From the NCBI RefSeq assembly GCF_007741535.1, contig NZ_CP036525.1, forward strand, positions 6,696,001 to 6,760,000: a stretch of 64,000 nucleotides of DNA, given 5' to 3'. A model generated the notes under the pieces. That model saw nothing but the letters and a program-made list of their open reading frames with translations, was not told where the DNA came from and did not search any database. Shown piece after piece: positions 40,806-48,629 of this stretch. A program made the position numbers and the translations under genes. This DNA comes from Rubripirellula lacrimiformis (GTDB lineage: Bacteria; Planctomycetota; Planctomycetia; Pirellulales; Pirellulaceae). Each line of letters starts with the position of its first letter. The first letter of the stretch is position 1.

Positions 40806-42326
40806 ATGAATCCACAAGACATCCTCCGCTACGTCGACTCGCTCCATCGCGAGAAAAACATTGACAAAGAGTTGGTGTTTTTGGCGATCGAATCGGCACT
40901 GCAAACGGCTGCGAAGCGTCAGTACGGCGAAGAAGCGGACATCATTGTTCAGCTGGATCGCGAGAACGGAAAAATCAACGCGACCTTGGAAGGCGAGACG
41001 CTGGGCGATGACCAAATCGGTCGAATCGGTGCCCAGACCGCTAAACAAGTCATCATCCAAAAGGTCAAAGAAGCCGAACGCGACTCGTTGATGATCGAGT
41101 ATCGCGAGCAGATCGGTGAAATTGTCAGCGGCATTATCGGCCGCGCCGACGGCGGCGTCGCGACGGTCAATCTGGGCAACGTCGAAGCCATCCTGCCACG
41201 CAGCGAACAGATCCCTGGCGAAACCCTGCATGCCGGCGAACGCGTCCGAGCCGTCGTGTTCGAAGTCCGGGCAACCGGCAACCGCGTCCGCGTGGTGCTT
41301 AGCCGAACCCGCCCCCAACTCGTCCAACGTTTGTTCGAACAGGAAATCCCCGAGCTGGGCGAAGAGATCATCGCGATCCGATCCATCAGCCGCGAACCTG
41401 GATATCGAAGCAAGGTTGCCGTCAGCAGCGTCGACACCCAAGTCGACCCCATCGCCGTTTGCGTTGGTTACCGCGGCAGCCGAATCAAGGCCGTTCGCGA
41501 AGAACTTGCGGGCGAACACATCGACGTGGTGCGGTACAGCGACGATCCGGAAATCCTGATTCCCAACGCCCTGCAACCCGCCGAAGTCGAACAGGTGTTG
41601 CTGTGCGACATGATCGGCCGCGCGATCGTGCTGGTCCAAGAAGACCAACTTTCGCTCGCCATCGGCCGCCGTGGCCAGAACGTCCGCCTGGGCAGCAAGC
41701 TTTGCGGGTGGGATATCGAAATCATGACCGGCGGCGAACTGGAAGAACAGATCGAACGCGCCGTTGCCGGATTCAGCCAAATCGACGGTGTCACCGAAGA
41801 AATCGCACAAGCATTGGTCGAACAAGGATACCTATCCTATGACGACTTGTCGGTGATCGAACCGGACCAGTTCATGGAAATGAGCGGGCTGACTGCCGAA
41901 CAGGTTGACCATATCGTCGAAGTCGCCGAACAAATGGGGCAGGAAGCCGAACAGGCTGCTGCGGACGAACGACGCAACCGACGCGAACGAGAACAACTGC
42001 AGAAAGAAGCCGAGGCTGCCGGAATCGCGGAACCGAAAACACCTGCACCGGAAACACCTGCACCGGAAGCAGCGGCGACTGAAGAAGCGGCTCCGGAAGC
42101 CGAAGCGGCGGAAGCGGCAGCTGACCCTGAGGCCGAATCTGCAACCGATGCGGTCGCCGAAGCGGCTGAATCAGATCCCGTAGCGGAATCGGCCGAAGCA
42201 GCCACCCCCTCCACCGAGGGCACAGATTCCTCGGAAACCGAACCTCCAACCGCCGACAACCAAGACGCATCAGCAGCCGATTCATCGGACGCTGAAACCG
42301 AGTCCGCGTCGTCCGAAAAGAGCTAA
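40806..42326 (+). CDS. nusA: Transcription termination/antitermination factor NusA
   Basis: A 506-residue NusA that binds RNA polymerase and nascent RNA. The N-terminal domain (MNPQDILRYVDSLHREKNID) is followed by S1 (about 130-200: GEIVSGIIGRADGGVATVNLG), KH1 and KH2 domains (DPIAVCVGYRGSRIKAVREEL; LSLAIGRRGQNVRLGSKL) and a helix-hairpin-helix-like segment (about 335-375). A disordered acidic Ala/Glu/Pro/Ser tail of about 110 residues closes the protein and carries a 15-bp direct duplication (about 42035-42064). rimP, the usual upstream partner, is absent; the order nusA-infB-rbfA is otherwise standard. Confidence 0.97.
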   Translation: MNPQDILRYVDSLHREKNIDKELVFLAIESALQTAAKRQYGEEADIIVQLDRENGKINATLEGETLGDDQIGRIGAQTAKQVIIQKVKEAERDSLMIEYREQIGEIVSGIIGRADGGVATVNLGNVEAILPRSEQIPGETLHAGERVRAVVFEVRATGNRVRVVLSRTRPQLVQRLFEQEIPELGEEIIAIRSISREPGYRSKVAVSSVDTQVDPIAVCVGYRGSRIKAVREELAGEHIDVVRYSDDPEILIPNALQPAEVEQVLLCDMIGRAIVLVQEDQLSLAIGRRGQNVRLGSKLCGWDIEIMTGGELEEQIERAVAGFSQIDGVTEEIAQALVEQGYLSYDDLSVIEPDQFMEMSGLTAEQVDHIVEVAEQMGQEAEQAAADERRNRREREQLQKEAEAAGIAEPKTPAPETPAPEAAATEEAAPEAEAAEAAADPEAESATDAVAEAAESDPVAESAEAATPSTEGTDSSETEPPTADNQDASAADSSDAETESASSEKS

Positions 42327-42715
42327 CGTTCTGCTCAGGCAACCCTCTGGCGATCCCGTCCGAGCGGAAAAGTTGCTACGTTCCGACACAAAGTTGGTTT
42401 CTAGACCTCTTCGTGGACGCACTTTTTCGCTATTGTACTGAGACGTTGAACCCGGCGCGGTTCCGGAGTGTCGTTGTAGGATTCCCGCTGAGGCTGGTTT
42501 TCAAGGCAGATTTGCCTGTAGACTAGTCACTGGCGATGGAGGAATAGGTTTATGTGACCCACCCAAATTTTCTGAACCCGGCCCCGCGCAGCCCGGCCCG
42601 ACCCGATACCACGTGATGGTATGGGGAAGCACGGTCGAGCACCCCCCGCACTCACGCAACAAAACACAACGCAAGCGTGGCGGGTTCCCAATCGAATCGA
42701 CAGGATTTTCACCCC
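42327..42715 (+). promoter_or_regulatory. infB leader with hairpin and start-stop elements
   Basis: 389 bases between nusA and infB. It has GGAGGA at 42538-42543 followed by ATG TGA at 42552-42557, a start codon directly abutting a stop, and an overlapping ATG GAG GAA TAG at 42536. Further down is a strong hairpin: ATACCA (42606-42611) and TGGTAT (42617-42622) over a CGTGA loop, extended by CCC/GGG across one mismatch. Such an arrangement suggests translational or attenuation control, but no known riboswitch class was recognised. Confidence 0.4.
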
Positions 42716-45700
42716 GTGCCCGCACGCATTTACGCGCTCGCAAAAGAACTGAACCTCGACAGCAAAGAGCTGGTTGACATCGTTAAGAAGGTTGGGATTA
42801 CCGGAAAGGGTTCCGCCTTGGCCAGTTTGACCGACGACGAAACAACCCGAGTCCGAGAACACCTCGCAGGTGCCGCTGCCAAGCCGGCTGCGCCGAGAGC
42901 TTCTGCTGCACCGGCACCCATGGGCGCCGTCCGCGACTCTGTTGTCCCAGCGGAACGCAAGCCGGTTGCGATCAACGTCGGACGATCGCGATCGCGGCCC
43001 ACCAGCGCTAAAAGCGACTCGGGGCCCAAGAGCGATCCTGCTCCTGCACCGACCAAGCCAGCGGTCGAAGAAACGCCCCAGGTTCAGCCTGAACCGGTTG
43101 CCAAAGCGCCGGAAGCACCAGCCGCCAAGGCTGACGCTGAACCACCGGTCGCCGAAACTCCGACCGTGGCGAAAACCGAATCCAAACCTGCGCCGCTTGC
43201 CAAGCCTGCGGCACCCCAGCGGCCGGCTCAGCCCATGTCTGCCGAACGTACCGCAGCGGCCATGGCCAAGAAGCCCGATTCGCCGACCCCACAGCGGCCT
43301 GCACCTACCGCGCCGAAAGCTCCTGAAGCACCGGCTGGTAAGAAACCAGGTTTCGCTAGCCGGATCGCAAGTCGCATGGCGGCTCGCAAGGGAACATCGT
43401 CACCCACCGAAGCGGTAGCACCGATTCGGCGCGACCCGACCGTCGGATCCAATAAGGTCCGCTCGTTGGACCGGCCTGCTGCCAGTGGCGATAAAAAGCC
43501 CAACGACGCGGCCAAAGCCAAGCGACGCGAACCACGCATCAACGTCAAGATGGCCTCGCTGCCCGAAGTCAGCGAACAGGCCGTGCCGAAAGCCGCCAGC
43601 GGCGAACCCAAGGCACAAAAGCCGGACGTCAAACTTAGCCCGGACGCGATCGCTGGTCACCGCCAAGGGATGCGTGCCCCGCTAGAACAACTGGCCAAAG
43701 AAGACGACGAAAAGAAGCGAGCAGCCAAACGCGGCAGCGGACTCGCTGGCTTCACCGGCGAAAAGAAACGCGGCACGGTCAAAGAAGAAGAAGAGAAGCC
43801 TCGCAAGAAGGGATTGGCCGGAATGGCCAGCCCGCGAGCCGAACGGGGACGTGGCAAATCACGCGGCCGCGTTTCGATGGACGGTTCTTTTGACCGCTCG
43901 CGACAATACCGATCCAACCGTGGGTCACGCCGCAAAAACATCAACACCGCGGCACCACGTAAAGATGCCGTCGTGCTGGAACTGCCATGCACCATCCGAT
44001 CGTTCTCCGAAGCAGCCGGCGTTTCCGTCGGTAAAGTCCTCGGCACAATGATGCAGATGGGATTGCAAGGTGGTGTGAACATCAACTCGCAGTTGGATCT
44101 GGAGTCGGCCGAAGCGGTCGCCGCCGAGATGGAACTGACGATCGAGCTGAAGGCGACCGAAACGCTTGAAGATTCGCTGATCTCCGAACTCGAAGATCGC
44201 GAAGACGGTGCCGAAACTCTGGTCCCACGTGCCCCGATCGTGACCTTCCTCGGTCACGTCGATCACGGCAAAACAAGTTTGTTGGATTACCTGATCGGCA
44301 TCAACGTCGTCAAAGGCGAAGCCGGCGGGATCACCCAACACATTCGTGCCTACGAAATCGACAAAGACGGTCGAAAGATCACCTTCGTCGATACACCTGG
44401 TCACGAAGCATTTACCGAAATGCGTGCTCGTGGTGCAAACGTCACCGACATCGCCGTTTTGGTGGTCGCTGCCGACGACGGCATCATGCCGCAAACTGCC
44501 GAAGCGATCAGCCATGCCAAGGCGGCCGGAGTGCCGATCGTCGTTGCACTGAACAAGATTGACTTGGAAGGCGTCGACGAGAACCGCATCCTGACTCAAT
44601 TGACCGAACATCAATTGACGCCTAGCGAATGGGGCGGTGACGTCGAAGTTGTCCGAACCAGTGCCACCAAGGGCACCGGGATGGACGAACTGCTGGAAAC
44701 CCTGCTGACGGTTGCCGAGCTGAATGAATACTCGGCCAACCCCAATCGCGAAGCGATGGGCGTCTGTATCGAATCGGAACAACAAGGCGACCGCGGTGTG
44801 GTTGCCAAGTTGGTTGTCCAAAACGGCACACTGCGTGTCGGCGACGTGCTGGTTTGCGGATCGGCCCACGGACGCGTCCGAGCGATGAACAGCACATTGA
44901 ACAACGAACCGATGACCGAAGCGGGCCCCAGCACGCCAGTCAGCGTGATGGGCTTCGACGAAGCACCGGGTGCCGGCGAACGGTTCCACGTTCTTGATGA
45001 CATCACCAAGGCTCGTGAAATCGCCCAAACGCGGGCACACGCCAGCAGCCAAGAATCGCTCTCTGGCATCAGCACGAAGGTTTCGTTCGAAAACTTCCAA
45101 GAGATGCTTCAGGACGGAACCATCGGTGTTCAAGCCGACAAGGTTCGCTTGAACATGATCATCCGTGCCGATGTGAAGGGTTCGCTCGAAGCGATCGAAA
45201 AAGAACTGACCAAGCTGGACCACCCCGAGGTCGAGATCCGAGTGCTGCAGAAGAGCGTCGGTGGCGTTTCGCTAGCCGACGTTACTCTGGCTTCGGCTTC
45301 CGATGCTGTGATCGCCGCCTTCAACGTCGTCCCCGACGAACAAGCACGTGCGATGGCAGACGAACGCGGTGTCGAAATTCGGCGTTACAGCGTGATCTAT
45401 AAGTTGACCGACGAGATTCGGGAAATGATCGAAGGTCGCCTGAAACCGGAAGAACGTGTCGTCGAACTCGGACGTGCGGTCGTCAAACAGGTCTTCAGCA
45501 TCAGCCGTGTCGGCACGATCGCCGGTTGCTATGTGGTCCAAGGTTTGATCCAACGCGGTTGCCGTATTCGCGTCACCCGTGACGGTCGAGTCATCGGCGA
45601 CTATCCACTCGATTCGCTGAAACGGATCAAGGACGACGCCAAGGAAGTTCCTCGCGGCATGGAGTGCGGTATTCGTTTGCAAGGTTTCAACGACATCAAA

Positions 45701-45757
45701 CAAGACGATGTTCTGGAAGCTTATCGAATCGAAGAAGTTGCCCGAACATTGGATTGA
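42716..45757 (+). CDS. infB: Translation initiation factor IF-2
   Basis: A 1013-residue IF-2 if started at GTG 42716 ([26 protein letters not shown] ten bases upstream); GTG 42677 is an alternative. The N-terminal IF2_N helix is followed by a very long low-complexity linker (about residues 60-420, rich in Ala, Pro, Lys, Glu), a second IF2_N region (EKP-type [20 protein letters not shown]), the GTPase domain from about 505 (G1 [13 protein letters not shown]3 DTPGHEAF, G4 NKID), and domains II-IV. It places initiator tRNA on the 30S subunit. Downstream rbfA is 245 bases away. Confidence 0.97.
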
Positions 45758-46002: not shown

Positions 46003-46446
46003 GTGTCCAGTCGCCGTTTGTTGAAAGCCGCCGAGGCGATTCGTGAGGTCGTTGCGTCATCCATCTTGACCGAGATGCGAGACCCACGTGTCCGTGACGT
46101 TACCGTGGTCGGTGTGAAAGTCACTCCGGACATGCGGGAAGCCGTTGTGATGGTCAGCATCATGGGCGACGAAGCGGCCCAGCAGCTGAGTTTGCGCGGA
46201 CTGCAGAATGCAGCCGGATTTTTGCAGAGTAAGATCGCCAATCGGATCGATACTCGATACACGCCACGTTTGCAGTTCAAAGTCGACAAGGGCGTCCAAC
46301 AGTCGATGGCCGTCGTCGAGATCTTGGAAAAGATCAAACGCGAACGCGATGGGATCGAGGAAGACGAATCGGCGCCGGAGACGGACACCGAAATGGATGT
46401 CGAATCCAACGACGATGACGCCTCGTCCAACGAAGACGAATCCTGA
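46003..46446 (+). CDS. rbfA: Ribosome-binding factor A
   Basis: RbfA assists 16S rRNA 5' end maturation on the 30S subunit. The 147-residue product begins at GTG 46003 (MSSRRLLKAAEAIREVV), and has the type-II KH fold pattern ILTEMRDPRVRDVTVVGVKVTPDMREAVVMVSI and the RYTPRLQFKVD segment near residue 85. An acidic, disordered tail of about 35 residues (EEDESAPETDTEMDVESND...) follows. It fits the conserved nusA-infB-rbfA order. The usual downstream truB/rpsO genes are not here. Confidence 0.95.
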   Translation: MSSRRLLKAAEAIREVVASSILTEMRDPRVRDVTVVGVKVTPDMREAVVMVSIMGDEAAQQLSLRGLQNAAGFLQSKIANRIDTRYTPRLQFKVDKGVQQSMAVVEILEKIKRERDGIEEDESAPETDTEMDVESNDDDASSNEDES

Positions 46447-46619: not shown

Positions 46620-47735
46620 ATGTCTGCAAGCAACCGTGCCAGCCTGATCGGCAAATTGCAAACCGCCCTCAAAAAGCATTACACAGCGTTGCCGGCTCAG
46701 CCGACGCGACCGCTGTTGGAACACTTGCTGTACGCATCACTGCTGCAAGATGCCCCCGCCGACCTGGCCGACGAAGGCATGGCGAAGTGCGAACAAGAGT
46801 TCTTTGATTGGAATGAAGTCCGCGTCACCTCGGTGACCGAACTGACACAGGTGCTTTCGCGTTTGCCCGACGCCCCCAAGGCTGCCGGTCGGCTGAAAAG
46901 CAACCTGCAATCGATCTTCGAAGAGTTCTATACCTTCGACCTGGATCACCTGAAAAAAGAAAACCTGGGCAAAGCCGTTGGCAAATTCGAAAAGATGCCA
47001 GGCATGACCCCGTTCGTGCTGAACTACACCGTCCAACATGGTTTGGCCGGGCATGCGATCCCCATCGATTATTCGGCAATGGTGATCATGCTGGCGACCG
47101 AAATCGCATCCCAACCCGAAGCGATGTCCGGCAAAGTGCCCGGTCTGGAACGCGCCATTCCCAAAAGCAAGGGCATCGAATTCGCTGGACTGCTGCACCA
47201 GTGTGCGGTGGCTCTGAACAAGAACCTGAAAGATAAGACTGCCCGCACCGTGCTGGAATCGGTGTCCAAGGGATCCGGCGATCGGCTGGACGAATGGATG
47301 GCAAGCAAGAAGGCGGCAAAGAAACGGGTTGTCAAACGAAAGACCCAAGAAAAGGCCGAAGCCGTCGAAGCCGCGAAGGTCGCCGAACAAGAAGCACTGA
47401 CGTCGCCGAAAAAAAAGCCCGCCAAGAAAGCGGCTGCTAAGAAACCCGTCGCGCCGCCAACCCCTGCCCCGGCGGAACCCGAAGACGCACAAAAATCGGC
47501 TTCGTCGAAAAAGTCGGTAGCCCCCAAGGCGGCAAAAGAATCGGCCAAACCGGCAAAAAAACCGGTTAGCAAAAAGTCGACGCCCGCCAAGGCCGAGGCC
47601 CCCAAGGACGCGGCAAAAAAAGAAACCAAGAAACCTTCGACCAAAAAGTCGGCCAGCAAGGCGGAACCCGCCAAGGGCAAGACCTCGTCGAAGAAATCTG
47701 ACAATCGCAAGCTGACCAAAAGCAAACCTCGATAA
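46620..47735 (+). CDS. Endonuclease III-fold (HhH-GPD-like) protein with lysine-rich histone-like tail
   Basis: A 371-residue protein in two parts. Residues 1-235 follow the helical layout of endonuclease III: LLEHLLYASLLQDAPADLADEG against the Nth LLSAQATD region, a DNA-binding hairpin MPGMTPFVLNY (about 126-136) against LPGVGRKTANV, and IPIDYSAM (Asp 150) against VDTHIF. The catalytic lysine position is occupied by a non-lysine (Pro/Phe) and the C-terminal iron-sulfur cysteines are missing. Residues about 236-371 are a Lys/Ala/Pro tail with AKK, KKP and SKKS repeats like histone H1 or bacterial H1-like proteins. It is probably a DNA- or RNA-binding architectural protein, not a glycosylase. 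It follows rbfA by 173 bp. Confidence 0.8.
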   Translation: MSASNRASLIGKLQTALKKHYTALPAQPTRPLLEHLLYASLLQDAPADLADEGMAKCEQEFFDWNEVRVTSVTELTQVLSRLPDAPKAAGRLKSNLQSIFEEFYTFDLDHLKKENLGKAVGKFEKMPGMTPFVLNYTVQHGLAGHAIPIDYSAMVIMLATEIASQPEAMSGKVPGLERAIPKSKGIEFAGLLHQCAVALNKNLKDKTARTVLESVSKGSGDRLDEWMASKKAAKKRVVKRKTQEKAEAVEAAKVAEQEALTSPKKKPAKKAAAKKPVAPPTPAPAEPEDAQKSASSKKSVAPKAAKESAKPAKKPVSKKSTPAKAEAPKDAAKKETKKPSTKKSASKAEPAKGKTSSKKSDNRKLTKSKPR

Positions 47736-47882: not shown

Positions 47883-48629
47883 ATGGCAGGACATTCAAAG
47901 TGGGCCAACATCCAACACCGAAAAGGTCGTGTGGATGCTGCTCGAGGTAAGTTGTGGAGCAAACTAAGCAAGGCCATCATCGTTGCAGCCAAGAGCGGCG
48001 GCGGTGACCCGGATGCCAATTTGCGACTTCGCAAGGCGATCGACGACGCCAAAGCGGTCAGCATGCCCAAAGACAATATCGAACGGGCCATCAAACGCGG
48101 TACCGGCGAATTGGCTGGCAACGAAGTCGAAGAACTGACCTACGAAGGCTACGGCCCCGGCGGTGTCGCCGTGATGTGCGAAGTCATGACCGACAACCGC
48201 AATCGCACCGGCCCCGAACTGAAAACGATCTTCTCCAAACTCGGTGGCGACCTAGGAAAGACCGGATGCGTGGCCTACCTGTTTGAACGCAAAGGCCTGT
48301 TCGTGCTGCCCGCCGAAGCCGGCGAAGAAAAGGTCACTGAGATTGCCTTGGAAAACGGCGGCGAAGATGTCGAGCCGATCGACGACGGCAAGTTTCAAGT
48401 CACCTGCCCGCCTGAAAACTATCAAGGCTTGGCCGACGCTTTCGAGGCCGCTGAACTGACTCCCGAAATCAGCGAAATCACTCGACTGCCACAGACGAAC
48501 ATCGACCTGGACGCTGCCGATGGCCGCAAGGTTCTGCGGTTGCTGGAACAGCTTGACGATCACGATGACATCCAGAATGTCAGCACGAATCTGAACATCA
48601 CTGACGAAATGATGGCCGACGAGGAGTGA
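47883..48629 (+). CDS. YebC/PmpR-family protein (probable transcription or translation regulator)
   Basis: A 248-residue protein starting MAGHSKWANIQHRKG with KLWSKLSKAIIVAAKSGGGDPDANLRLRKAIDDAKAVSMPKDNIERAIKRG, the invariant YebC N-terminal domain. Later segments include ELTYEGYGPGGVAVMCEVMTDN and the acidic C-terminal domain ending near TNLNI. The family has been described as DNA-binding regulators and more recently linked to ribosome rescue at proline stretches, which would suit its place near infB and rbfA; that link is inference. It follows the EndoIII-like gene by 147 bp. Confidence 0.95.
   Translation: MAGHSKWANIQHRKGRVDAARGKLWSKLSKAIIVAAKSGGGDPDANLRLRKAIDDAKAVSMPKDNIERAIKRGTGELAGNEVEELTYEGYGPGGVAVMCEVMTDNRNRTGPELKTIFSKLGGDLGKTGCVAYLFERKGLFVLPAEAGEEKVTEIALENGGEDVEPIDDGKFQVTCPPENYQGLADAFEAAELTPEISEITRLPQTNIDLDAADGRKVLRLLEQLDDHDDIQNVSTNLNITDEMMADEE

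Follow-up and report, generated by a model that had tools for sequence, protein, structure and literature searches.

A widely kept planctomycete relative of endonuclease III that lacks the lyase lysine, carries a basic tail and adjoins genes of transcription and translation initiation

The window analyzed here, a 64,000-nucleotide stretch of the Rubripirellula lacrimiformis genome (contig NZ_CP036525.1), contains an open reading frame of 371 amino acids that starts with the ATG at 46620 and ends with the stop codon at 47733–47735 (Table 1). It is preceded on the same strand by nusA, infB and rbfA and followed by a yebC/TACO1 family gene; the first of these frames we take to be nusA from the look of its sequence and from the tblastn order in other genomes. 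According to the structural models described below, the product consists of an endonuclease III (EndoIII) fold followed by a disordered Lys/Ala/Pro tail, and we refer to it as pseudo-EndoIII. The first-pass annotation of this DNA viewed it as a repair fold turned into an architectural or RNA-binding protein, a reading that, as a whole, is partly supported. The IF2 encoded two genes upstream itself has a long Lys/Ala/Pro-rich N-terminal region (window 42677–43970) that, by eye, resembles the tail of pseudo-EndoIII. Around the gene, one promoter-like site was found against 0.7 expected, and seven terminator-like sites against 4.8 expected, an excess too small to be informative.

Table 1. Coordinates of pseudo-EndoIII, its parts and its neighbors in the window
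Feature	Position	Strand	Basis
Whole gene, pseudo-endonuclease III with basic tail	46620..47735	+	ORF and relatives
Core with predicted HhH-GPD fold, residues 1–218	46620..47273	+	AlphaFold2, Foldseek and VIA matches to EndoIII
Signature D-W-N-E-V-R-V, residues 63–69	46806..46826	+	Family alignment
Phe132, at the position of the EndoIII catalytic Lys	47013..47015	+	Alignment
His145 in the G-G-H-x-I-P motif	47052..47054	+	H in 87/88 Pirellulales relatives
Asp150, at the catalytic Asp position, unconserved in the family	47067..47069	+	Alignment
Predicted long basic helix, residues 219–261, running into the tail	47274..47402	+	Full-length model
Predicted disordered Lys/Ala/Pro tail, residues 262–371	47403..47732	+	Low pLDDT, composition
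C-terminal peptide K-L-T-K-S-K-P-R, residues 364–371	47709..47732	+	Pirellulales consensus K-L-T-K-R-K-P-R
nusA, upstream, conserved cluster	40806..42326	+	ORF; same tblastn order in other genomes
infB (IF2)	42677..45757	+	Pfam
rbfA, directly upstream, conserved neighbor	46003..46446	+	Pfam PF02033 and synteny
yebC/TACO1 family gene, immediate downstream neighbor, as in most near relatives	47883..48629	+	Pfam, synteny

By sequence alone the link to EndoIII is not significant. A Pfam search with the 371-residue protein returned no family over the cut-off, the best E-value in a sequence search of the PDB was 0.2, and NF053634 (MonDNAglycDR2438), the one NCBIfam glycosylase model with any match, scored 18.1 bits over residues 15–130, below its curated cut-off of 400 bits, the other NCBIfam matches being low-complexity ones to the tail. 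Structural comparison revealed the relationship. The AlphaFold2 model of the core, built from 71 of 98 chosen diverse alignment rows with that of R. lacrimiformis placed first, reached a pLDDT of 96.8 and a pTM of 0.92. Its best Foldseek match was the Deinococcus radiodurans enzyme DrEndoIII-1 (8a5f, E 1.9e-6), followed by 4unf and 8a5c, with DrEndoIII-3, ROS1, 1kea and E. coli Nth among the further matches; all 50 PDB matches listed are, by title, glycosylases with the HhH-GPD fold or their homologues. VIA aligned the core with 4uob (Z 17.3, 226 residues, 4.9 Å) and 1orn (Z 15.8, 209 residues, 4.3 Å), scores that carry less weight than the Foldseek E-value and the phylogenetic tree because purely helical models can score a Z of about 14 even when they have no true relative. 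The two-domain HhH-GPD fold of EndoIII was thus recovered by all three methods in the structure prediction and fold search against Nth/MutY that the first-pass annotation had proposed, and its claim that the N-terminal part tracks EndoIII is borne out. In the full-length model, for which 46 of 75 candidate rows were used, a basic helix spans residues 219–261, and from about residue 262, beyond the helix end, pLDDT is about 50–60 or less.

In EndoIII, the catalytic lysine performs the Schiff-base lyase chemistry. We aligned 180 distinct sequences, merging rows that were identical over the first 150 residues (close relatives remain, so the counts are not independent), and scored the lysine, the aspartate and the Fe-S motif in 170 relatives, a set that excludes eight catalytic Nth rows, a different HhH-GPD protein (L167) and a truncated row (L099). 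The lysine is replaced by Phe132 in the R. lacrimiformis protein and is absent from 169 of the 170 relatives, the lone exception being a divergent row (L148) whose alignment at this point is doubtful; neither this count nor the recovered HhH-GPD fold refutes the first-pass reading. Phenylalanine or tyrosine occupies the position in 88/88 Pirellulales rows, 16/16 rows of group f3, 12/15 rows of families f102–f106 and 17/51 rows of other classes. The second glycine of the hairpin hGxG, here Thr130, is present in 9/9 catalytic-type rows (including L167) versus 7/171 others, among which L099 has a gap there. The only cysteines left are Cys57 and Cys195, the four Fe-S cysteines not being present, and the Fe-S motif was detected in 0/88 Pirellulales, 0/16 f3, 13/15 f102–f106 and 22/51 other rows. 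Some lineages without the lysine thus retain the Fe-S cysteines, and Pirellulales are without both. The loss of lysine and cysteines, as first described for this one protein, is confirmed. The claim that Asp150 remains is true of the R. lacrimiformis protein and fails for the family: aspartate is found in 66/88 Pirellulales, 16/16 f3, 15/15 f102–f106 and 16/51 other rows (113/170 overall), with Asn, Ser, Gly or Cys in its place in 22/88 Pirellulales relatives. Since it is kept by this many relatives, monofunctional excision could continue where it persists.

The f102–f106 orthologues (L210–L223 and L069), in which the Fe-S motif outlasts the lysine, could possibly represent a redox or structural intermediate. 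Besides pseudo-EndoIII, four HhH-GPD genes of the R. lacrimiformis genome exceed the Pfam cut-off. One of them (L003) has the lysine, the aspartate and the Fe-S motif, and another (L001) the lysine, the aspartate and four clustered cysteines with a different spacing, so that base-excision chemistry is available elsewhere in the genome; the fourth (L004, C1:5676220-5676633, Pfam 45.1 bits) lies in a 215-aa open frame. The excluded L167 (genome G284, C5:319000-322000) is an open frame of 608 residues that includes an HhH-GPD domain and is distinct from the pseudo-EndoIII family; with tyrosine at the lysine position and with hGxG and the Fe-S cysteines present, it is perhaps a MIG-like glycosylase.

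The best conserved residues of the family lie outside the old active site. They are R68, N65, L96, D63, V69, E66, E74 and A50, with R68 found in 171/171 aligned rows (a set with L167 but without L099 and the eight catalytic rows), N65 in 99%, D63 in 97% and W64 in 78%, and on this alignment D-W-N-E-x-R-V is a new motif of the family. The median net charge of the core is −1 in 88 Pirellulales, −5 in 16 f3, −2 in 15 f102–f106 and −3 in 51 other rows, versus +10.5 in catalytic Nth (n = 8 only).

Residues 236–371 count 37 lysines, 28 alanines and 16 prolines, and the tail has a median net charge of +29.5 in Pirellulales. Lysine makes up 27% of the last 130 residues, more than in any other of 277 ORF-genes called mechanically in a 464-kb sample of this 8.5-Mb genome, where the next highest value is 10% and the median 3%. 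Across same-class relatives its length ranges from 31 to 294 residues. In Pirellulales, only the last eight residues (consensus K-L-T-K-R-K-P-R) are conserved: in 86 complete rows the entropy of these positions is 0.3–1.8 bits versus a mean of 2.8 bits at positions 31–100 from the end, lysine stands at −3 in 83/86 and proline at −2 in 82/86. An ending of the form K[PS][RK] occurs in 83/86 Pirellulales versus 2/240 background genes, and elsewhere in 8/15 f102–f106, 1/16 f3 and 1/49 other-class rows. At least four K/R among the last 12 residues are found in 85/86 Pirellulales, 16/16 f3, 14/15 f102–f106 and 41/49 other complete rows. The last 60 residues contain at least 25% K/R in just 2/15 f102–f106 rows, where tails are therefore mostly short, and a long tail is missing from 13/15 of these rows and from 16/49 complete other-class rows. 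Neither a tail of histone H1 length nor the K-R-K-P-R end is universal in the family, and because long tails are missing in so many relatives, the function cannot reside wholly in the tail. What survives of the proposed likeness to histone H1 is the composition and the predicted disorder; as the essence of the protein, "histone-like" is weakened by the short tails of f102–f106 and by the conservation, in Pirellulales, of the last eight residues and not of the tail body.

To explore the descent of the family, 72 rows were placed in a rapid maximum-likelihood tree with MutY as the root (short search, no bootstraps, long branches). It unites the 62 family rows in a single clade (SH-aLRT 98), and the nearest outgroups, L098 and L224, are catalytic enzymes of the DR2438 kind; Pirellulales (SH-aLRT 99) and f3 (100) are each monophyletic and the other groups are not. 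On this tree the family, traced here within Planctomycetota, is nested inside DR2438-type EndoIII; both this descent and the loss of the lyase residues are well supported. The Fe-S motif changes at least five times, three R. lacrimiformis outgroup rows having been labelled by hand, and the order of loss as reconstructed is lysine at the family base and Fe-S later and several times. Comparison of 28 pairs among eight cores gave pN of 0.08–0.17 versus pS of 0.71–0.93, with synonymous sites saturated in 25/28 pairs and hence no single dN/dS ratio; such low pN relative to pS means that the protein is strongly constrained and not decaying.

Co-occurrence across planctomycetes, another check that had been proposed, is broad close to R. 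lacrimiformis. The protein is present in 144/149 genomes of its own taxonomic family (of the other five, four were empty in a profile search and one gave a 25.6-bit match), and 194/198 genomes of the class have a match at E 0.001. The four class genomes without a match were still empty on re-search, and four low-scoring ones, when re-examined, contained a single orthologue split by an insert. Such an insert at about residues 106–126 in L219, L221, L222 and L223 (genera g309 and g296 of family f103) repeats part of the core (KGLKNAAKQ.../KGLKQAAKQ...) and splits the profile matches. Among genomes of the phylum that are at least 90% complete, 285/294 match at E 0.001, catalytic Nth included, and 90/294, by hand count of the listed rows, reach an E-value of at most 1e-40. 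This corresponds to at least 143 bits, above the 127 bits of the best catalytic row found, L098. Co-occurrence falters in families f44, f46, f63, f75 and f107, whose genomes at least 90% complete gave weak matches or none; by this profile evidence they probably lack the protein, which thus seems dispensable in some planctomycetes. Apparent fusions in L157/L091, L159, L136 and L137, seen as long stop-to-stop frames, were rejected, their N-terminal parts being judged by eye to be GC-rich read-through.

Gene order was compared by tblastn with the R. lacrimiformis window proteins as queries, a procedure that a divergent rbfA could escape. In 50/51 same-class loci, rbfA lies immediately upstream, on the same strand and within about 0.35 kb (33/34 in L035–L041 and L043–L069, most of them near relatives, 7/7 in L118–L124 and 10/10 in L236–L245, leaving out L042 and loci with short flanks); in the sole exception, L041, the sequence starts 230 bases before the gene. 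In a second clade (L125–L130, L133–L136, L254), rbfA is adjacent in 7/11 loci, and the remaining 4/11 have nusA on the same strand 3.5–4.5 kb upstream. Among 11 further other-class loci (L131, L132, L137, L246–L253), rbfA was found adjacent in 0/11 and yebC in three (L249, L250, L251). L255, where nusA, rbfA and yebC do occur, was left out because no match to the family reached the threshold there. The location next to translation genes, first noted at this single locus, therefore extends to a transcription-translation neighborhood conserved across the class, which suggests a pathway rather than a ligand.

On the basis of these data, we lean, at slightly less than even confidence, toward a pseudo-glycosylase taken over, without enzymatic function, as a tether between nucleic acid and the NusA/IF2/RbfA machinery, with RNA likelier than DNA. 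A DR2438-type EndoIII paralogue would have lost the AP-lyase lysine, and with it the Schiff-base lyase chemistry, at the base of the planctomycete family, then the Fe-S cluster in several lineages, and would have been kept as a binding protein within the nusA-infB-rbfA cluster. That the hairpin glycine, the Fe-S cysteines and the core charge have gone speaks for a lesion-reading face that has fallen out of use; the variability of the aspartate speaks against excision as the function common to the family, and the glycosylase activity has presumably been lost. The neutral or slightly acidic core, which would not grip DNA through its overall charge any more, may act as a docking module via the conserved D-W-N-E-x-R-V segment, with nucleic acid held by the basic helix, the tail and the C-terminal K-R-K-P-R end. 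A tail rich in lysine would fit DNA and equally rRNA or nascent RNA, and the conserved cluster points to a task early in transcription-translation or in the maturation of the 30S subunit. RNA, be it a nascent transcript, rRNA or that of the 30S subunit, would be a likelier ligand than the DNA of the chromosome, and the protein might tether or chaperone the machinery that starts transcription and translation. IF2 and NusA are described as forming a complex in the available text of PMC12297416. We prefer this tether over the alternatives considered below because of that complex, the residue losses, the variable aspartate, the conserved cluster and the Lys-rich tail.

The strongest alternative is a nucleoid architectural protein whose tail condenses DNA in the manner of histone H1 or mycobacterial MDP1 and whose dead glycosylase core bends or clamps it. 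The packing proteins of the condensed Gemmata obscuriglobus nucleoid are little known. The extreme composition and predicted disorder of the tail fit such a role, as do, in the portions available, a report that this nucleoid is unusually condensed, with unidentified particles along the DNA and with two HU proteins and no histone homologue found (PMC3440768), and the finding that the disordered C-terminal tail of MDP1 compacts DNA (PMC5974015). We nevertheless consider it unlikely, as the core has no net positive charge like that of catalytic Nth, tails are mostly short in f102–f106 (which probably include the Gemmata family), the conserved neighbors are transcription-translation genes and the R. 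lacrimiformis genome already has two HU-family genes. Quite improbable is a transcription-coupled damage sensor, whose core would read lesions or abasic sites without cutting and hand them over to NusA-linked repair or separate glycosylases: it would accord with the EndoIII ancestry in the tree, with the glycosylase homologue Mag2, described in the title of PDB entry 4b21 as sculpting DNA at abasic sites, and with the link between IF2 and genome integrity made in the text available for PMC3334882, but the hairpin glycine, the lysine and, in many relatives, the aspartate are absent, the top conserved residues lie elsewhere and the core charge is near zero or negative. The thymine-DNA glycosylase MIG has tyrosine at the lysine position, and an active monofunctional glycosylase of this kind, with Asp150 still excising the base, would suit the F or Y in 133/170 relatives, the aspartate in 31/31 rows of f3 and f102–f106 and in most Pirellulales, and the thymine-DNA glycosylase 1kea among the Foldseek matches, but is very improbable given the replaced aspartates of Pirellulales, even at the same cluster position (e.g. 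L067), the loss of hGxG and Fe-S and a core charge unlike that of catalytic Nth.

The retention of the protein across much of the phylum, usually beside transcription and translation-start genes, suggests reuse as a non-enzymatic binding protein. Beyond the tether itself, we regard it as conceivable, although on balance doubtful, that Planctomycetota made EndoIII into a dedicated non-enzymatic component of transcription or translation start, perhaps a novel factor of ribosome assembly or one associated with IF2/NusA, which would have D-W-N-E-x-R-V as a new binding surface and, in Pirellulales, a C-terminal K-R-K-P-R anchor. No paper on this family was found in the open-licence literature searched, nor any report there of the HhH-GPD fold being used in transcription or translation start, and the combination of a repair fold without its chemistry, a basic tail, a graded series of losses and a link to this cluster is unreported in it. 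In Rhodopirellula baltica, as far as the available text of PMC2754498 extends, rbfA (RB5503) is upregulated late in cold shock and an HU-like protein is reported, with nothing on a pseudo-EndoIII gene; the main text of a planctomycete proteome paper (PMC8567305) does not mention histones or rbfA. A salt-resistance EndoIII (PMC4602150) was set aside as a different protein, being 217 aa long and, in the part of the paper available, closest to verrucomicrobial EndoIII. This unnamed planctomycete protein, retained in many genomes, appears as a repair enzyme that shed its chemistry (lysine, Fe-S, core charge) and acquired a basic tail together with a stable location among core genes of gene expression. 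The use to which a dead glycosylase is put could be tested directly on it, and it is a candidate for an unrecognized translation or transcription factor, or for the missing packing protein of planctomycete nucleoids.

Among known systems, NusA, IF2 and RbfA resemble pseudo-EndoIII in their shared gene neighborhood only, its own fold being that of a glycosylase. The globular domain of eukaryotic histone H1 is a winged helix, whereas that of pseudo-EndoIII is HhH-GPD. A long Lys-rich C-terminal tail, disordered by prediction in pseudo-EndoIII, is shared with mycobacterial MDP1 (PMC5974015) and with histone H1-like basic tails. Mag2 (4b21), found among the Foldseek matches of the core and judged by its PDB title, is a glycosylase homologue, and AlkD2 has kept a glycosylase fold without alkylpurine excision (PMC4433238, in the part available); AlkD2 has a HEAT-like repeat fold, both belong to subfamilies other than that of pseudo-EndoIII, and in the material compared neither shows a basic tail or a link to translation genes. 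The best structural matches of the core are D. radiodurans EndoIII-1 (DR2438) and EndoIII-3. DrEndoIII-3 is likewise described, in the available text of PMC9268735, as having no detected activity, but it retains the lysine, the aspartate and the Fe-S cluster, whereas pseudo-EndoIII, presumably inactive as well, is without the lysine and Fe-S. From both Deinococcus proteins, pseudo-EndoIII differs in its approximately neutral core, its added basic tail and its location in the nusA-infB-rbfA cluster.
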